A stretch of DNA of 64,000 nucleotides, from the NCBI RefSeq assembly GCF_005222785.1, contig NZ_STGH01000002.1, forward strand, positions 930,001 to 994,000. The letters run 5' to 3'. The stretch's first letter is position 1; each line of letters begins with the position of its first letter. Below the pieces are notes generated by a model. The model worked only from the letters and a program-made list of their open reading frames with translations. It did not search any database and was not told where the DNA came from. A program made the position numbers and the translations under genes. Below are positions 50,244 to 61,269 of this stretch, piece by piece. Source of the stretch: Rhodobacter sp. SY28-1. Lineage in GTDB: Bacteria > Pseudomonadota > Alphaproteobacteria > Rhodobacterales > Rhodobacteraceae.

Positions 50244-51395
50244 TCAGAACCCGGCCTCCAGCCGGTCCACCAGCGCCGCCAGCATCCCTCGACACCGCTC
50301 GATCTGCTCCACCGAGACAAACTCGTCCGGCTTGTGCCCCTGCGCCATTGACCCAGGCCCGCAGATCACCGTCGGCACGCCCAGCCGGGCATCGAACAGC
50401 CCGCCTTCCGTCCCGAAGGCCACCTTCATCGTCCCGTTCGCCCCGGTCAGCCCCTTCACGAACCGCACCACCTCGGCGTCTGACGGCGTCCCGAGGCCCG
50501 GGTAGTCCCACAGCCGCTCCACCGTGATAGCCGCCTCCGGAAACTCGCCCCGCAAGGGCGCGACGATCGCCTCGGCCTCCGCTTCCAGCCGCCCGATCAA
50601 GCCCGCCACGTCCTCACCAGCAAGGGACCGGATCTCGAAATCCAGCACGGCATGGTTCGGCACGATGTTGACCTGCACCCCGCCCGACATCTTGCCCACA
50701 TGCAGCGTCGTGTAGGGCACGTCATAGTCCCCGTCCCGAAGCCCCGTCGCCGCGACCTCGGCCTGCACACGGCGCACCGCGCCCAGGAAATCCCCCGACA
50801 GATGCAGAGCGTTCAGCGCCAGCGGGGCCAGAGCCGAATGCCCCTCGCGCCCCCGGCAGGTTGCCCGAAGCGCGACCTTTCCCTTGTGCCCGGTCGCGAC
50901 CTGCATTCCCGTCGGTTCCCCCACGATGCAGAACCGGGGTTTGACCGGGGCCGCCGCCAGAAGGTCGATCAGCGACCGCACACCCATGCAGCCGATCTCC
51001 TCGTCATAGGACAGCGCCAGGTGCAGCGGCACCTTCAGCGGACGGCGCGCGGCCAGCAGCATCGCCTCCACCGCACAGGCCACGAACCCCTTCATGTCCG
51101 CCGCACCCCGCCCGTAATAACGGCCTCGCGCCTCGGTCAGCGCGAAGGGGGGCACGGTCCAGTCCTGCCCCTCGACCGGCACGACATCGGTATGGCCCGA
51201 CAGCATGACCCCACCCACCGCGCCGGGCCCGGTCGAGGCGAAAAGGTTCGCCTTGCCGCCGCCCGCATCCGGTACCAGCGTGACAGTCAGTCTGGCCGCT
51301 TCCAGCAGATCGCGGACATAGCCCATCAAAGCCATGTTCGGCCGATGGCTGACCGTGTCGAACGCCACAAGCTGCCCCAGTATCTCGCGCATCAT
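50244..51395 (-). CDS. argE: Acetylornithine deacetylase (M20 family)
   Basis: 383 residues from ATG 51395 behind GGGAGACG. M20 motifs: GGVMLSGHTDVVPVEGQDW (metal His and Asp), YGRGAADMKGFVA (bridging Asp), ALSYDEEIGCMGVRSLI (catalytic Glu-Glu), IVGEPTGMQVATGHKGK and VAFGTEGGLF with the final ligands in GPGSMAQGHKPDEFV. This pattern is the ArgE type. Removes acetyl from N-acetylornithine, though many alphaproteobacteria use ArgJ instead, so a related amide could be the real substrate. Confidence 0.9.
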   Translation of the reverse strand: MMREILGQLVAFDTVSHRPNMALMGYVRDLLEAARLTVTLVPDAGGGKANLFASTGPGAVGGVMLSGHTDVVPVEGQDWTVPPFALTEARGRYYGRGAADMKGFVACAVEAMLLAARRPLKVPLHLALSYDEEIGCMGVRSLIDLLAAAPVKPRFCIVGEPTGMQVATGHKGKVALRATCRGREGHSALAPLALNALHLSGDFLGAVRRVQAEVAATGLRDGDYDVPYTTLHVGKMSGGVQVNIVPNHAVLDFEIRSLAGEDVAGLIGRLEAEAEAIVAPLRGEFPEAAITVERLWDYPGLGTPSDAEVVRFVKGLTGANGTMKVAFGTEGGLFDARLGVPTVICGPGSMAQGHKPDEFVSVEQIERCRGMLAALVDRLEAGF

Positions 51396-51519
51396 CGTCT
51401 CCCTTTCGTCCGTGCTAGCGCGAAATCCACCGCCCGGAAAGCACCCGATCCGTGCGTTCCGCCCTTGTCGCCATGCGCGGGCTTTGCGAGACTCGCCGCA
51501 TCTTTGCCGAAAGTGTCCG

Positions 51520-52200
51520 ATGCGCCCTGCCCTCCCGCTTCTTGCTGCCCTCCTCTGCGCGTCGAGCCCGGCCCTTGCCGATCCGGCGAACGTGGCCCTC
51601 GCCCGATCCGGAACCGACGGCGCCGCCGGGCGGCTGATCCTGGCGCAGCAATCGTACCTGGCCGCGATGGACGAGGGCGATCCCATCCTTCTTCTGGCGG
51701 CGATCCGGCTGGCTCGGTCGGTGACCGTGCGCCCGCCGACCGGCTGGACCCGAACCACTTCGGACGAAGGCGCGGCGGACCAGGACATCGGCCGGTCTGC
51801 AGCCCCCGACCCGGCCTCGCCCCAGGTGCTGGCCATTGCCCAGGCCTTGGCCGGAGAAGACATCACGCTGCAGGACCTTGCTTACGATCTGGATGCCCAG
51901 CGCCCCCATGGCAGGCAACCGACCGCAATCCGGGCCGAGGCGGCTCTGGCAGGCGGCCAGACCGACAGCTGGCGCATCGCGCTGTCGGGCGATGTCCCGG
52001 CCGAACTTGGCCTGATCGGGGACAGAGACGGCGCGCTTGGCCTTACCGTGACCGACGACTCCGGCAGCATCGTCTGCGCCCTTCCCCCCGGCCTCACCCC
52101 GGCGCTGTGCCGATTTACCCCGGCGCGCAACGGCTTTTTCACGGTCGAGATCCGCAACATCGGGCAGGTGCAGAACAGTTATCAGCTGGTCGGAAGCTGA
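51520..52200 (+). CDS. Secreted protein of unknown function, paralogue of the next gene
   Basis: 226 residues from ATG 51520; signal peptide MRPALPLLAALLCASSPALA. No known family was recognised. The C-terminal 60 residues (LGLTVTDDSGSIVCALPP... TPARNGFFTVEIRNIGQVQNSYQLVGS) look like a small beta-sandwich with one Cys pair, and match the end of the following gene. The N-terminal half contains helical repeats (QQSYLAAMDEGDPILLLAAIRLARSV). Probably periplasmic or surface. Divergent from argE across 124 bases. Confidence 0.72.
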   Translation: MRPALPLLAALLCASSPALADPANVALARSGTDGAAGRLILAQQSYLAAMDEGDPILLLAAIRLARSVTVRPPTGWTRTTSDEGAADQDIGRSAAPDPASPQVLAIAQALAGEDITLQDLAYDLDAQRPHGRQPTAIRAEAALAGGQTDSWRIALSGDVPAELGLIGDRDGALGLTVTDDSGSIVCALPPGLTPALCRFTPARNGFFTVEIRNIGQVQNSYQLVGS

Positions 52201-52305
52201 TGTGACGGCATTTGTCATGCCAAGACATCTTCTCAATCGATCAAAGGCCTGCAAGGATTGCGCCGTTCCGTGCCACTCCGGCGCGGTAAACCTTCAGGAT
52301 CCGCC

Positions 52306-53127
52306 ATGACTCCCAAGACATTTGTGCTTCTCCTCGCCTCCACCGCGATTGCCGCGACTGTCCTTCCCGCTCTCGCCCAGGACAATTCCGGGCCCAACGT
52401 GGGCGCCGCTGCCGCCGATGCGACCGCTGGCGCTGCGGCAACGATGGGGCTCGCGCAGGACCTCTACGCGCTGGGTGCGGCGCAGGGTGATGCCGTGACC
52501 GTGCTGGCCGCAGCCAAGCTGGCGGCATCGGTCGATATCAAATCGGCCGAACCCGCGGCGCTGGACCCCGCGAAGATCACGTTCGGCGAGGGCGACCAGG
52601 AAACCTTCCGCAAGAAGGCCGCCCCCGCAGCCCCGGCGGCCCCGGCGCCGATGATGAACGACGGCACCCCGCGCGCGGCGGCCAAGGCCACTTTCTTCAG
52701 CGCCACGTCCGAGGATGAAGGCGCGGCCGAGGCTCCGGTCACTGCGGACGCGATGTTTGCCAAGGCCAAGGAACTGGCCGCCGACGACGAGGCGGTGCTG
52801 GGCCTGATCGACGATGCGATGGCCGAGGGTTCGCGCGGGCGGATCGGCGGCGCGGTCGAGTGGCTCTCGCGCCTGCCGGCGGGTCAGACCGACGTCTGGG
52901 AAATCCCCTATTACGGCAATTCCTACGCCGAGGTCGCCATCGTCGGCGACGGTGATGCGAACCTCGACGTGGCGGTGACCGATGAAAACGGCAATGTCAT
53001 CTGCTATGACGTCAGCTGGTCGGACAAGCTCTACTGTGACTGGACCCCGGCCTGGGACGGCTATTTCTACGTCACCGTCCAGAACATGGGCGGGTCGCGG
53101 AACAGCTATTACCTGCTGACGAACTGA
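52306..53127 (+). CDS. Secreted protein of unknown function, longer paralogue
   Basis: 273 residues from ATG 52306 (frame open to 52258). Signal peptide ending LPALAQDN. Helical N-terminal domain (QDLYALGAAQGDAVTVLAAAKLAASV), an Ala/Pro/Glu-rich linker (about residues 100-150), and a C-terminal beta domain with YAEVAIVGDGDANLDVAVTDENGNVICYDV, two cysteines 16 residues apart, and WDGYFYVTVQNMGGSRNSYYLLTN. The end of the preceding gene aligns with it (DSGSIVC/ENGNVIC; NIGQVQNSY/NMGGSRNSY), so the two are tandem duplicates. The C-terminal domain resembles bacterial pre-peptidase or carbohydrate-binding sandwiches. Ends in a strong terminator. Confidence 0.75.
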   Translation: MTPKTFVLLLASTAIAATVLPALAQDNSGPNVGAAAADATAGAAATMGLAQDLYALGAAQGDAVTVLAAAKLAASVDIKSAEPAALDPAKITFGEGDQETFRKKAAPAAPAAPAPMMNDGTPRAAAKATFFSATSEDEGAAEAPVTADAMFAKAKELAADDEAVLGLIDDAMAEGSRGRIGGAVEWLSRLPAGQTDVWEIPYYGNSYAEVAIVGDGDANLDVAVTDENGNVICYDVSWSDKLYCDWTPAWDGYFYVTVQNMGGSRNSYYLLTN

Positions 53128-53147: not shown

Positions 53148-53177
53148 AAGGCCCCGGAGACTTGCCTCCGGGGCCTT
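53148..53177 (+). terminator. Rho-independent-like terminator after the paralogue pair
   Basis: AAGGCCCCGGAG-ACTTGC-CTCCGGGGCCTT is a perfect 12-bp stem 21 bases after the stop, followed by TGTGCTTT. It can also serve the convergent rbsK transcript. Confidence 0.8.
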
Positions 53178-54120: not shown

Positions 54121-54573
54121 TCAGGCCTCCGGCGGGATCACGCCCTTGCGGAACATGAAGCAGCCGTAGAAGCGACGCTCCCCGGTCTGGATCACCGCAT
54201 AGGACTGCCGCGCCATGTCGTAGAAGGCAAAGCGTTCGATGCTGACCATCTTGCGAGGGCGGCCTTCGGCGTGGTCGATCTCGGCCTGCACTTCCTGCTG
54301 CACCGGCGGGATCTCGTCAGGCTTGCCAACGACTTCCATCCGCCCGGCGAAATCATCGACGAAGGTGTCCAGCGGCAGGACCGACAGGATCGCGTTCACC
54401 GCCTCGGCACAGGTCAGGTTCTCCATCCGCAGAAGCTTGCCCGTCACCGTGGCCCGCGCCACGGAATCCGACGGGAAGTTGGTATCGGCCACGATCAGCA
54501 CGTCGCCATGTCCCATCGCGCGCAAGGTGGCAAGCACCTCCGCATTCAGGCGGTTGTCGATTCCCTTCAGCAT
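54121..54573 (-). CDS. RbsD/FucU-family sugar mutarotase, paralogue 1
   Basis: 150 residues. MLKGIDNRLNAEVLATLRAMGHGDVLIVADTNFP with the catalytic histidine in GHGD, LPLDTFVDDF, ERFAFYDMARQSYAVIQTGE and the terminal FYGCFMFRKG place it in the FucU branch (interconverts anomers of fucose or ribose-like sugars). A second copy, clearly paralogous (MLKGIDQRLSAE; YGCFILKKG), ends the permease operon at 60814. Two mutarotases in one locus suggest two sugar forms or a heteromer. Confidence 0.9.
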   Translation of the reverse strand: MLKGIDNRLNAEVLATLRAMGHGDVLIVADTNFPSDSVARATVTGKLLRMENLTCAEAVNAILSVLPLDTFVDDFAGRMEVVGKPDEIPPVQQEVQAEIDHAEGRPRKMVSIERFAFYDMARQSYAVIQTGERRFYGCFMFRKGVIPPEA

Positions 54574-60813: not shown

Positions 60814-61269
60814 ATGCTGAAAGGGATCGACCAGAGGCTGAGCGCCGAGATCGTCCATGTCCTGATGCTGCTGGGGCATGGCGATGACTTGGTCATCTGT
60901 GATGTCAATCACCCGGCGGCGGCCATCGCGGCGGAGACGACCTATGGCCGGCTGATCGACATGGCGGGCTGCGACATCCCCACAGCCGCCCGCGCGATCC
61001 TGACGCTGATGCCGCTGGACACCTTCGTCCCCGCCCCGGTCTCTCGCATGCAGGTCGTGGGCAACCCTGACGGCCAAGTGCCGATCTTTGCCCGGATGCA
61101 GGCCGTAGTAGACAAGGCCGAGGGCCGGACCGTGTCAATCCAGGCGCTTGAACGCTTCGACTTCTACGCCGCCGCGAAACGCGCCTTTGCGATCATCCGG
61201 ACCAGCGACAGCGGCCCCTACGGCTGCTTCATCCTGAAGAAGGGCGTGGTGGACCTTCCCGAATTGTAG
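60814..61269 (+). CDS. RbsD/FucU-family sugar mutarotase, paralogue 2
   Basis: 151 residues, GAAAGGGATCGC before the ATG. Same family as the protein at 54121: MLKGIDQRLSAEIVHVLMLLGHGDDLVICDVNHP, LPLDTFVPAPV, ALERFDFYAAAKRAFAIIRT and YGCFILKKGV. About 40-45% of residues look shared by eye. Closes the plus-strand transporter operon and ends at palindromic repeat copy F. Confidence 0.9.
   Translation: MLKGIDQRLSAEIVHVLMLLGHGDDLVICDVNHPAAAIAAETTYGRLIDMAGCDIPTAARAILTLMPLDTFVPAPVSRMQVVGNPDGQVPIFARMQAVVDKAEGRTVSIQALERFDFYAAAKRAFAIIRTSDSGPYGCFILKKGVVDLPEL

Follow-up and report, generated by a model that had tools for sequence, protein, structure and literature searches.

A pair of tandem paralogues from an unnamed family of apparently exported proteins with ties to a caspase-clan protease locus

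To our knowledge, relatives of the caspases are widespread in bacteria, and little has been established about their substrates and control. One concrete candidate for a partner of such enzymes is a small protein, to all appearance exported, whose gene is fixed beside those of caspase-clan peptidases in two proteobacterial classes. The two proteins described here, A and B, are a duplicated pair from the family of this protein, which has no name and is linked to a caspase-clan protease locus.

Prokaryotic caspase operons that carry other proteolytic domains are on record in a survey of 2012. As far as its accessible text goes, the same survey describes a Rhizobium operon in which a protease is combined with protease inhibition, and operons with more than one metacaspase, Alphaproteobacteria among their carriers (PMC3501461). 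The words trypsin, Rhodobacter and pre-peptidase are absent from its main text. The EACC1/EAD and VMAP systems, as set out in the accessible parts of Kaur et al. (2020, 2021), are NTP-dependent conflict systems, in which caspase and trypsin-like peptidases are paired with hydrolases (PMC7159879, PMC8195603). In the literature surveyed, which consists mostly of papers available without subscription, no account was found of the family of A and B, or of its third member C, paired with caspase peptidases.

A and B are encoded by adjacent open reading frames on the same strand of a 64,000-nucleotide stretch of the genome of Rhodobacter sp. SY28-1 (the window). Gene A (51520..52200, + strand) codes for a two-domain protein of 226 residues and is the faster-evolving copy of the tandem. 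Gene B (52306..53127, + strand) codes for a two-domain protein of 273 residues and is the conserved copy. Both frames are open between these positions. Judged by eye, both N-termini are signal-peptide-like, as the first-pass annotation of the window had proposed; the putative signal peptide of A (MRPALPLLAALLCASSPALA) spans 51520..51579 and the putative signal peptide region of B (MTPKTFVLLLASTAIAATVLPALAQ) spans 52306..52380, both on the + strand. The motifs quoted in that annotation are present, SGSIVCALP and VQNSYQLV in A and NGNVICYDV and SRNSYYLL in B, and its view of the two as tandem paralogues is borne out by BLASTP, which aligns them over 151 columns with 34% identity and a score of 86.3 bits. 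The E-value of 7e-25 rules out chance similarity. Only two cysteines follow the signal region in each protein, at positions 186 and 197 in A and 233 and 244 in B.

Compared with Tabrizicola thermarum (L128), the dN/dS ratios of A and B are 0.158 and 0.103, and that of the neighbouring M20 gene is 0.115. Such low ratios indicate purifying selection, and both A and B thus look like maintained genes; pseudogene status was rejected, as the ratios are well below 1. The neighbour itself, an M20-family peptidase gene (50244..51398, - strand; PF01546 and PF07687), often adjoins A/B in other genomes. It is treated as context and is not counted as part of the system. A promoter scan at the A/B locus found none, and the single terminator-like site at 53148-53177 is close to the expectation from shuffled sequence (one site against a mean of 0.9). 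Elsewhere in the window, two RbsD/FucU-like reading frames (54121-54573 on the - strand and 60814-61269 on the + strand) flank a sugar-transport-like gene region. The first of them matches PF05025 in Pfam; the second and the region between were judged by eye.

Family members are found in 31 of 61 related genomes; the window's genus, with 32 genomes, accounts for 30 of the 31. In a survey of the taxonomic family, 29 of 296 genomes match, or 27 after removal of G035 and G249, in which the matches are PPC-type domains of RTX metalloproteases. Across the phylum, 14 of 397 genomes match, and some of these matches are multi-copy or are single domains within other proteins. Among 80 of the 83 loci collected, the named relatives include Tabrizicola, which is the nearest, Fuscovulum, Cypionkella, Pseudorhodobacter, Shimia and Seohaeicola, and, outside Rhodobacterales, Polaromonas, Uliginosibacterium, other Burkholderiales-type records and two Bacteroidales. 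The suggestion of a lineage-specific pair in the earlier annotation consequently fails for B, which has relatives in many genera of Rhodobacterales, in Betaproteobacteria and in Bacteroidales; A is the only restricted copy. Record L171 bears the title Exiguobacterium profundum (MAG), apparently in error: its B and the M20 and selU-type genes near it share 57-75% identity with those of Tabrizicola.

A third paralogue, C, and a protease locus linked to the family lie elsewhere in the window's genome and had no place in the first-pass annotation. In a tree of 86 domains, with the B rows thinned, A is nested within B (support of the joint branch 98/95) and groups with its kin in L148 and L149 (100/99). 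The best reading of this nesting is that A arose from B by tandem duplication. The C copies of Rhodobacterales form a clade of their own (100/98), set apart from the A/B group (98/97), and C is best read as an older paralogue. The finer branching of the tree is unsure, since the alignment has few columns.

The main clue to the role of the family, which the first-pass suggestion of a possible surface or envelope pair does not take in, is its recurring gene link with C14 and CHAT peptidases. In the window's genome C is located on contig C1, and its stop codon overlaps the start codon of the C14 gene caspase-1 (casp1) by one base, in the sequence TGATG. Caspase-1 is present in 26 of the 32 genomes of the genus, a count that includes fragments in G003 and genes with in-frame stops in G025 and G026, and C adjoins it in all 26. 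The remaining six genomes, all without caspase-1, have no match to C. The Fisher p of this association is 1e-6, inflated by the relatedness of the genomes. In the survey of the taxonomic family, 17 of 19 C-type copies adjoin caspase-1, the exceptions being L121 and L125. Over the 296 genomes, 19 have both a member of the protein family and caspase-1, eight have a family member only, one (G294) has caspase-1 only, and 268 have neither. The corresponding Fisher p of 1e-22 overstates the evidence, because the genomes are related. This table presumes that the same 296 genomes entered both surveys, and the genome handles listed in them agree. The weaker caspases of G122, G242 and G254 (E 7e-57 to 7e-52) were not counted as caspase-1.

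In named Betaproteobacteria, a C14 domain starts within 250 bp downstream of a family member in all five loci (L201-L204 and L206); the second family copy of L202 has no C14 domain downstream. In the genus g327, a CHAT domain is encoded directly downstream of a family member in three of four genomes (L231-L233, and not L235). Pfam confirmed the C14 domain in L203 and the CHAT domain in L231, and the other loci were assigned with HMMs built in this work and with tblastn. In the two Bacteroidales loci, neither a C14 nor a CHAT gene was found within the 20 kb examined. The window's genome (G000) has five C14 genes, and the three that lie outside the protease locus, at C4:142290, C1:1074105 and C1:1038007, score above casp1 and casp2.

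The protease locus of G007 (L040) begins with casp1 and C, followed divergently by the genes for HtrA, a response regulator and a histidine kinase. Next come a patatin-like lipoprotein, a second caspase (casp2) and an S1 trypsin, then the convergent B and A, and then M20. Every enzyme and both regulators of L040 score above their Pfam cut-offs. For PF00656, with a cut-off of 21.4 bits, casp1 and casp2 reach 66.2 and 70.7 bits in L040 and 70.0 and 86.1 bits in the window's genome. Across 65 casp1 and 45 casp2 reading frames, the catalytic His and Cys columns show conservation of 90% or more. By pattern counts, the His is found in 61 and the Cys in 64 of the 65 casp1 frames, and the Cys in 43 of the 45 casp2 frames; the His pattern matches 20 of 45 in casp2, being too narrow for GHGA. 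The trypsin motifs TAAHC and GDSGG occur in 44 of 44 frames, and the serine motif of HtrA is NPGSSGG. From these residues, casp1, casp2 and the trypsin look active. Their N-termini are signal-peptide-like by eye, and that of the patatin is lipoprotein-like. The caspases, the trypsin, HtrA and the lipase of the Rhodobacterales locus seem to share a single compartment.

The strict link to the caspase locus runs through C, and A and B are tied to it more loosely. Of the 32 genomes of the genus, 14 have B next to the trypsin gene (G002, G003, G004, G007, G013, G016, G017, G019, G020, G023, G026, G027, G028 and G030). The whole locus together with A/B is found on one contig in eight of the 32 (G003, where it is broken, G004, G007, G013, G016, G020, G028 and G030); in G019, G023 and G026 the casp2-trypsin-B-A part is separate from the rest, and in G002, G017 and G027 the contigs end inside the locus. 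B lies away from the trypsin gene in ten genomes (G000, G005, G008, G009, G011, G012, G018, G021, G029 and G031). The window's genome is of this split kind, with A/B on C2 and casp1, C, HtrA, response regulator, histidine kinase, patatin, casp2 and S1 on C1 (L036 and L050). G014 and G022 keep A and B without the cluster, and G001 and G006 keep A alone, all four being without caspase-1. G010 and G025 have C without B, and G015 and G024 have no member of the family. The caspase cluster of G003 (L072) is broken into fragments, some of them interrupted by stops, and A and B are still open.

These exceptions allow for a different history, in which C is the partner of the caspase and A/B have left the system to take up another role in the envelope, at the M20 locus, so that their nearness to the cluster is leftover linkage. 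Persistence of A or A/B without caspase-1 in four genomes of the genus, presence of the family without caspase-1 in eight of the 27 genomes of the wider survey, and the ten genomes with B away from the trypsin gene, the window's own included, all speak for such a departure, as do the frequent M20 neighbour and the separation of the A/B group from C in the tree. The first three of these facts also count against a partner role of A/B. A departure is harder to reconcile with Seohaeicola, Shimia and Mesobacterium, where B lies by the cluster and M20 does not adjoin, and with the CHAT domain that is encoded less than 3 kb from B in nine of 69 scanned named Rhodobacterales loci (L181, L185, L187, L188, L189, L190, L193, L195 and L197). 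The HMM for that scan was built from four Pfam-confirmed CHAT domains, and four of 73 loci, those shorter than 8 kb (L154, L160, L161 and L163), were left out. A departure of A/B is on balance unlikely; it keeps the weight it has because A/B are retained in several genomes that lack caspase-1, and because they frequently lie at a distance from the locus. As a separate observation, a C14 gene adjoins an S1 trypsin gene in L246, L248 and L249, from other genomes of the taxonomic family, where no relative of A, B or C was detected nearby; the caspase-trypsin pairing thus recurs on its own.

AlphaFold2 was run on alignments of 81 and 51 rows, of which all but the first row came from L128-L207. The model of B has a pLDDT of 88.1 and a pTM of 0.84, and that of A a pLDDT of 95.1 and a pTM of 0.90. 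Structure prediction had been proposed in the first-pass annotation as a check on its claim of helical N-terminal halves and a common C-terminal beta domain, and both features are seen in the two models, which have one predicted fold and not the unrelated folds that would have refuted the claim. The elements follow in the same order: a helix pair, a second helix pair and an eight-strand beta-sandwich; two short additional strands separate the helix pairs. In A, the predicted first helical hairpin is encoded at 51622..51717 (residues 15-46 of the folded chain in the model), the second at 51820..51897 (residues 81-106) and the PPC/GOLD-like sandwich, which contains cysteines 186 and 197, at 51922..52194. 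In B, the first hairpin is encoded at 52432..52527 (residues 18-49 of the folded chain) and is followed by an Ala/Pro-rich linker at 52591..52740, the second hairpin at 52744..52827 (residues 122-149) and the PPC/GOLD-like sandwich with cysteines 233 and 244 at 52852..53121; all of these features are on the + strand. Confidence in the model of B is lowest at the start of the linker, with block means of pLDDT of 56 and 61 over model residues 71-90. The two cysteines of the sandwich are invariant in an A/B/C alignment of 14 rows. The divergence in length and linker noted earlier is also accounted for, as 38 of the 47 residues by which the proteins differ fall between the helix pairs, where A has 34 residues and B has 72.

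The variable linker bears on the possibility that A, B and C are substrates, in which the caspase or the trypsin would cut between the helical half and the sandwich and free an active or signalling piece. The coupling of the C gene to casp1 would suit a substrate. The B linker of Tabrizicola is of low confidence and Ala/Pro-rich, often with basic residues before it, and orthocaspases, according to the accessible part of one source, cleave after positively charged residues (PMC6426788). Such a basic Ala/Pro linker was not observed in A or in the B proteins of L156, L178 and L189, so that among these proteins no conserved cleavage site was found. A role as substrates is rather doubtful.

Curated libraries give the family no name, as the first-pass annotation had anticipated. 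Neither A nor B has a Pfam match, and in NCBIfam A has none and B a match at chance level (E 1.1, 9.3 bits against a cut-off of 65). Searches of the sequences of solved structures with phmmer and with profiles gave no believable relative, the best profile rows being designed chlorophyll-dimer proteins. PF04151, the PPC family, leaves A, B and C of the window's genome unmatched. It is the Pfam family that matches the largest number of members of the set A4, nine of 81 at E up to 0.1, the best at 6e-5. Its matches in four betaproteobacterial relatives, of which L201 is the best, reach 15.0-23.4 bits against the cut-off of 25.9. Conversely, the family profile A1 matches the PPC domains of the two RTX metalloproteases (E 4e-5 and 1e-4), one of which is above and one below the Pfam cut-off.

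Among structures compared with the predicted models, the GOLD domain 7rrm has the highest Z, 9.6 for B and 9.5 for A. The PPC domain of Tk-SP (3afg) gives 9.0 for B (93 residues, rmsd 2.0) and 9.5 for A (94 residues, rmsd 1.9), the collagen-binding domain of ColH (3jqw) gives 8.9 and 9.1, with ColG domains also matching, and 5sv5 gives 7.8 and 8.5. All these matches are at low sequence identity, and a Z under 8 may reflect a shared arrangement only. GOLD domains are known from eukaryotic trafficking proteins, and we know of none that serves as a peptidase accessory. The GOLD (p24/TMED) fold matches both models, but the identity to 7rrm is 14% for B and 9% for A, and neither Pfam nor the solved-structure sequence searches link A/B to GOLD. 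With PPC domains, A/B share the eight-strand sandwich of the predicted models; they differ in being short complete reading frames with a helical half of their own, whereas a PPC domain is the tail of a secreted peptidase, and neither of them reaches the curated cut-off. As the support from PF04151 is weak though specific, the domain is called PPC-like here and is not filed as PPC.

The periplasmic lysozyme inhibitor PliG (4dzg) is also among the structural matches, with Z 7.3 for B and 8.4 for A. This match and the operon logic of C and casp1 would agree with A, B and C being dedicated inhibitors that silence exported peptidases until a stress signal arrives. Sandwiches of this type commonly reach a Z near 8, however, and no inhibitory loop was identified; dedicated inhibition is very improbable.

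The gene link with caspase-clan peptidases recurs, C overlaps casp1 by one base, and the sandwich resembles domains found fused to other secreted proteases; together these findings suggest that A and B act in trans as exported partner subunits, which would hold, target or restrain exported caspase-clan cysteine peptidases. This is the explanation favoured here, tentatively and at slightly less than even likelihood. The sandwich would do in trans what fused PPC domains do for other secreted peptidases, and binding of the enzyme or of its substrate would fall to the helical hairpins. In agreement with such a role, the best structural matches include PPC domains of secreted subtilases and collagenases. 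Besides the persistence of A/B and of the family without caspase-1, it has to contend with the small share of genomes, eight of 32 in the genus, in which a single contig carries A/B and the complete locus, with the second family copy of L202 and the two Bacteroidales loci described above, with G294, which has caspase-1 and no family match, and with the GOLD domains, which fit the fold as well as PPC domains do. A partner of this kind would be exported to the periplasm and would bind one of the peptidases, and it might either promote or hold back the enzyme.

It is possible to go one step further and to picture the locus as an envelope protease cascade, in which a stress-sensing two-component system switches on the two caspases, the trypsin, HtrA and the patatin, while A, B and C set the time and place of caspase action. 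The two-component system may control the locus; the cascade as a whole is improbable at present. If it were true, execution would take place in the periplasm and not in the cytoplasm.

The A/B pair may thus belong to an undescribed bacterial protease system. Models of known defence systems in PADLOC do not match A or B of the window or C of L040; its general models match casp1, casp2, HtrA and the patatin. The EACC1/EAD and VMAP systems resemble the locus in that, as far as their accessible descriptions go, caspase or trypsin-like peptidases have hydrolase partners. The caspases of the locus score 37.2 and 30.4 bits with the caspase_w_EACC1 model NF047832, against a cut-off of 140, and a Pfam scan of ten L040 genes showed no NTPase hub. 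The prokaryotic C14 peptidases, that is the metacaspases and orthocaspases, are the nearer likeness, since casp1 and casp2 pass PF00656 and keep the His and Cys columns. Compared with the recorded C14 operons, casp1 and casp2 have signal-peptide-like N-termini and stand beside a PPC-like protein, and their locus also carries trypsin, HtrA, patatin and two-component genes.
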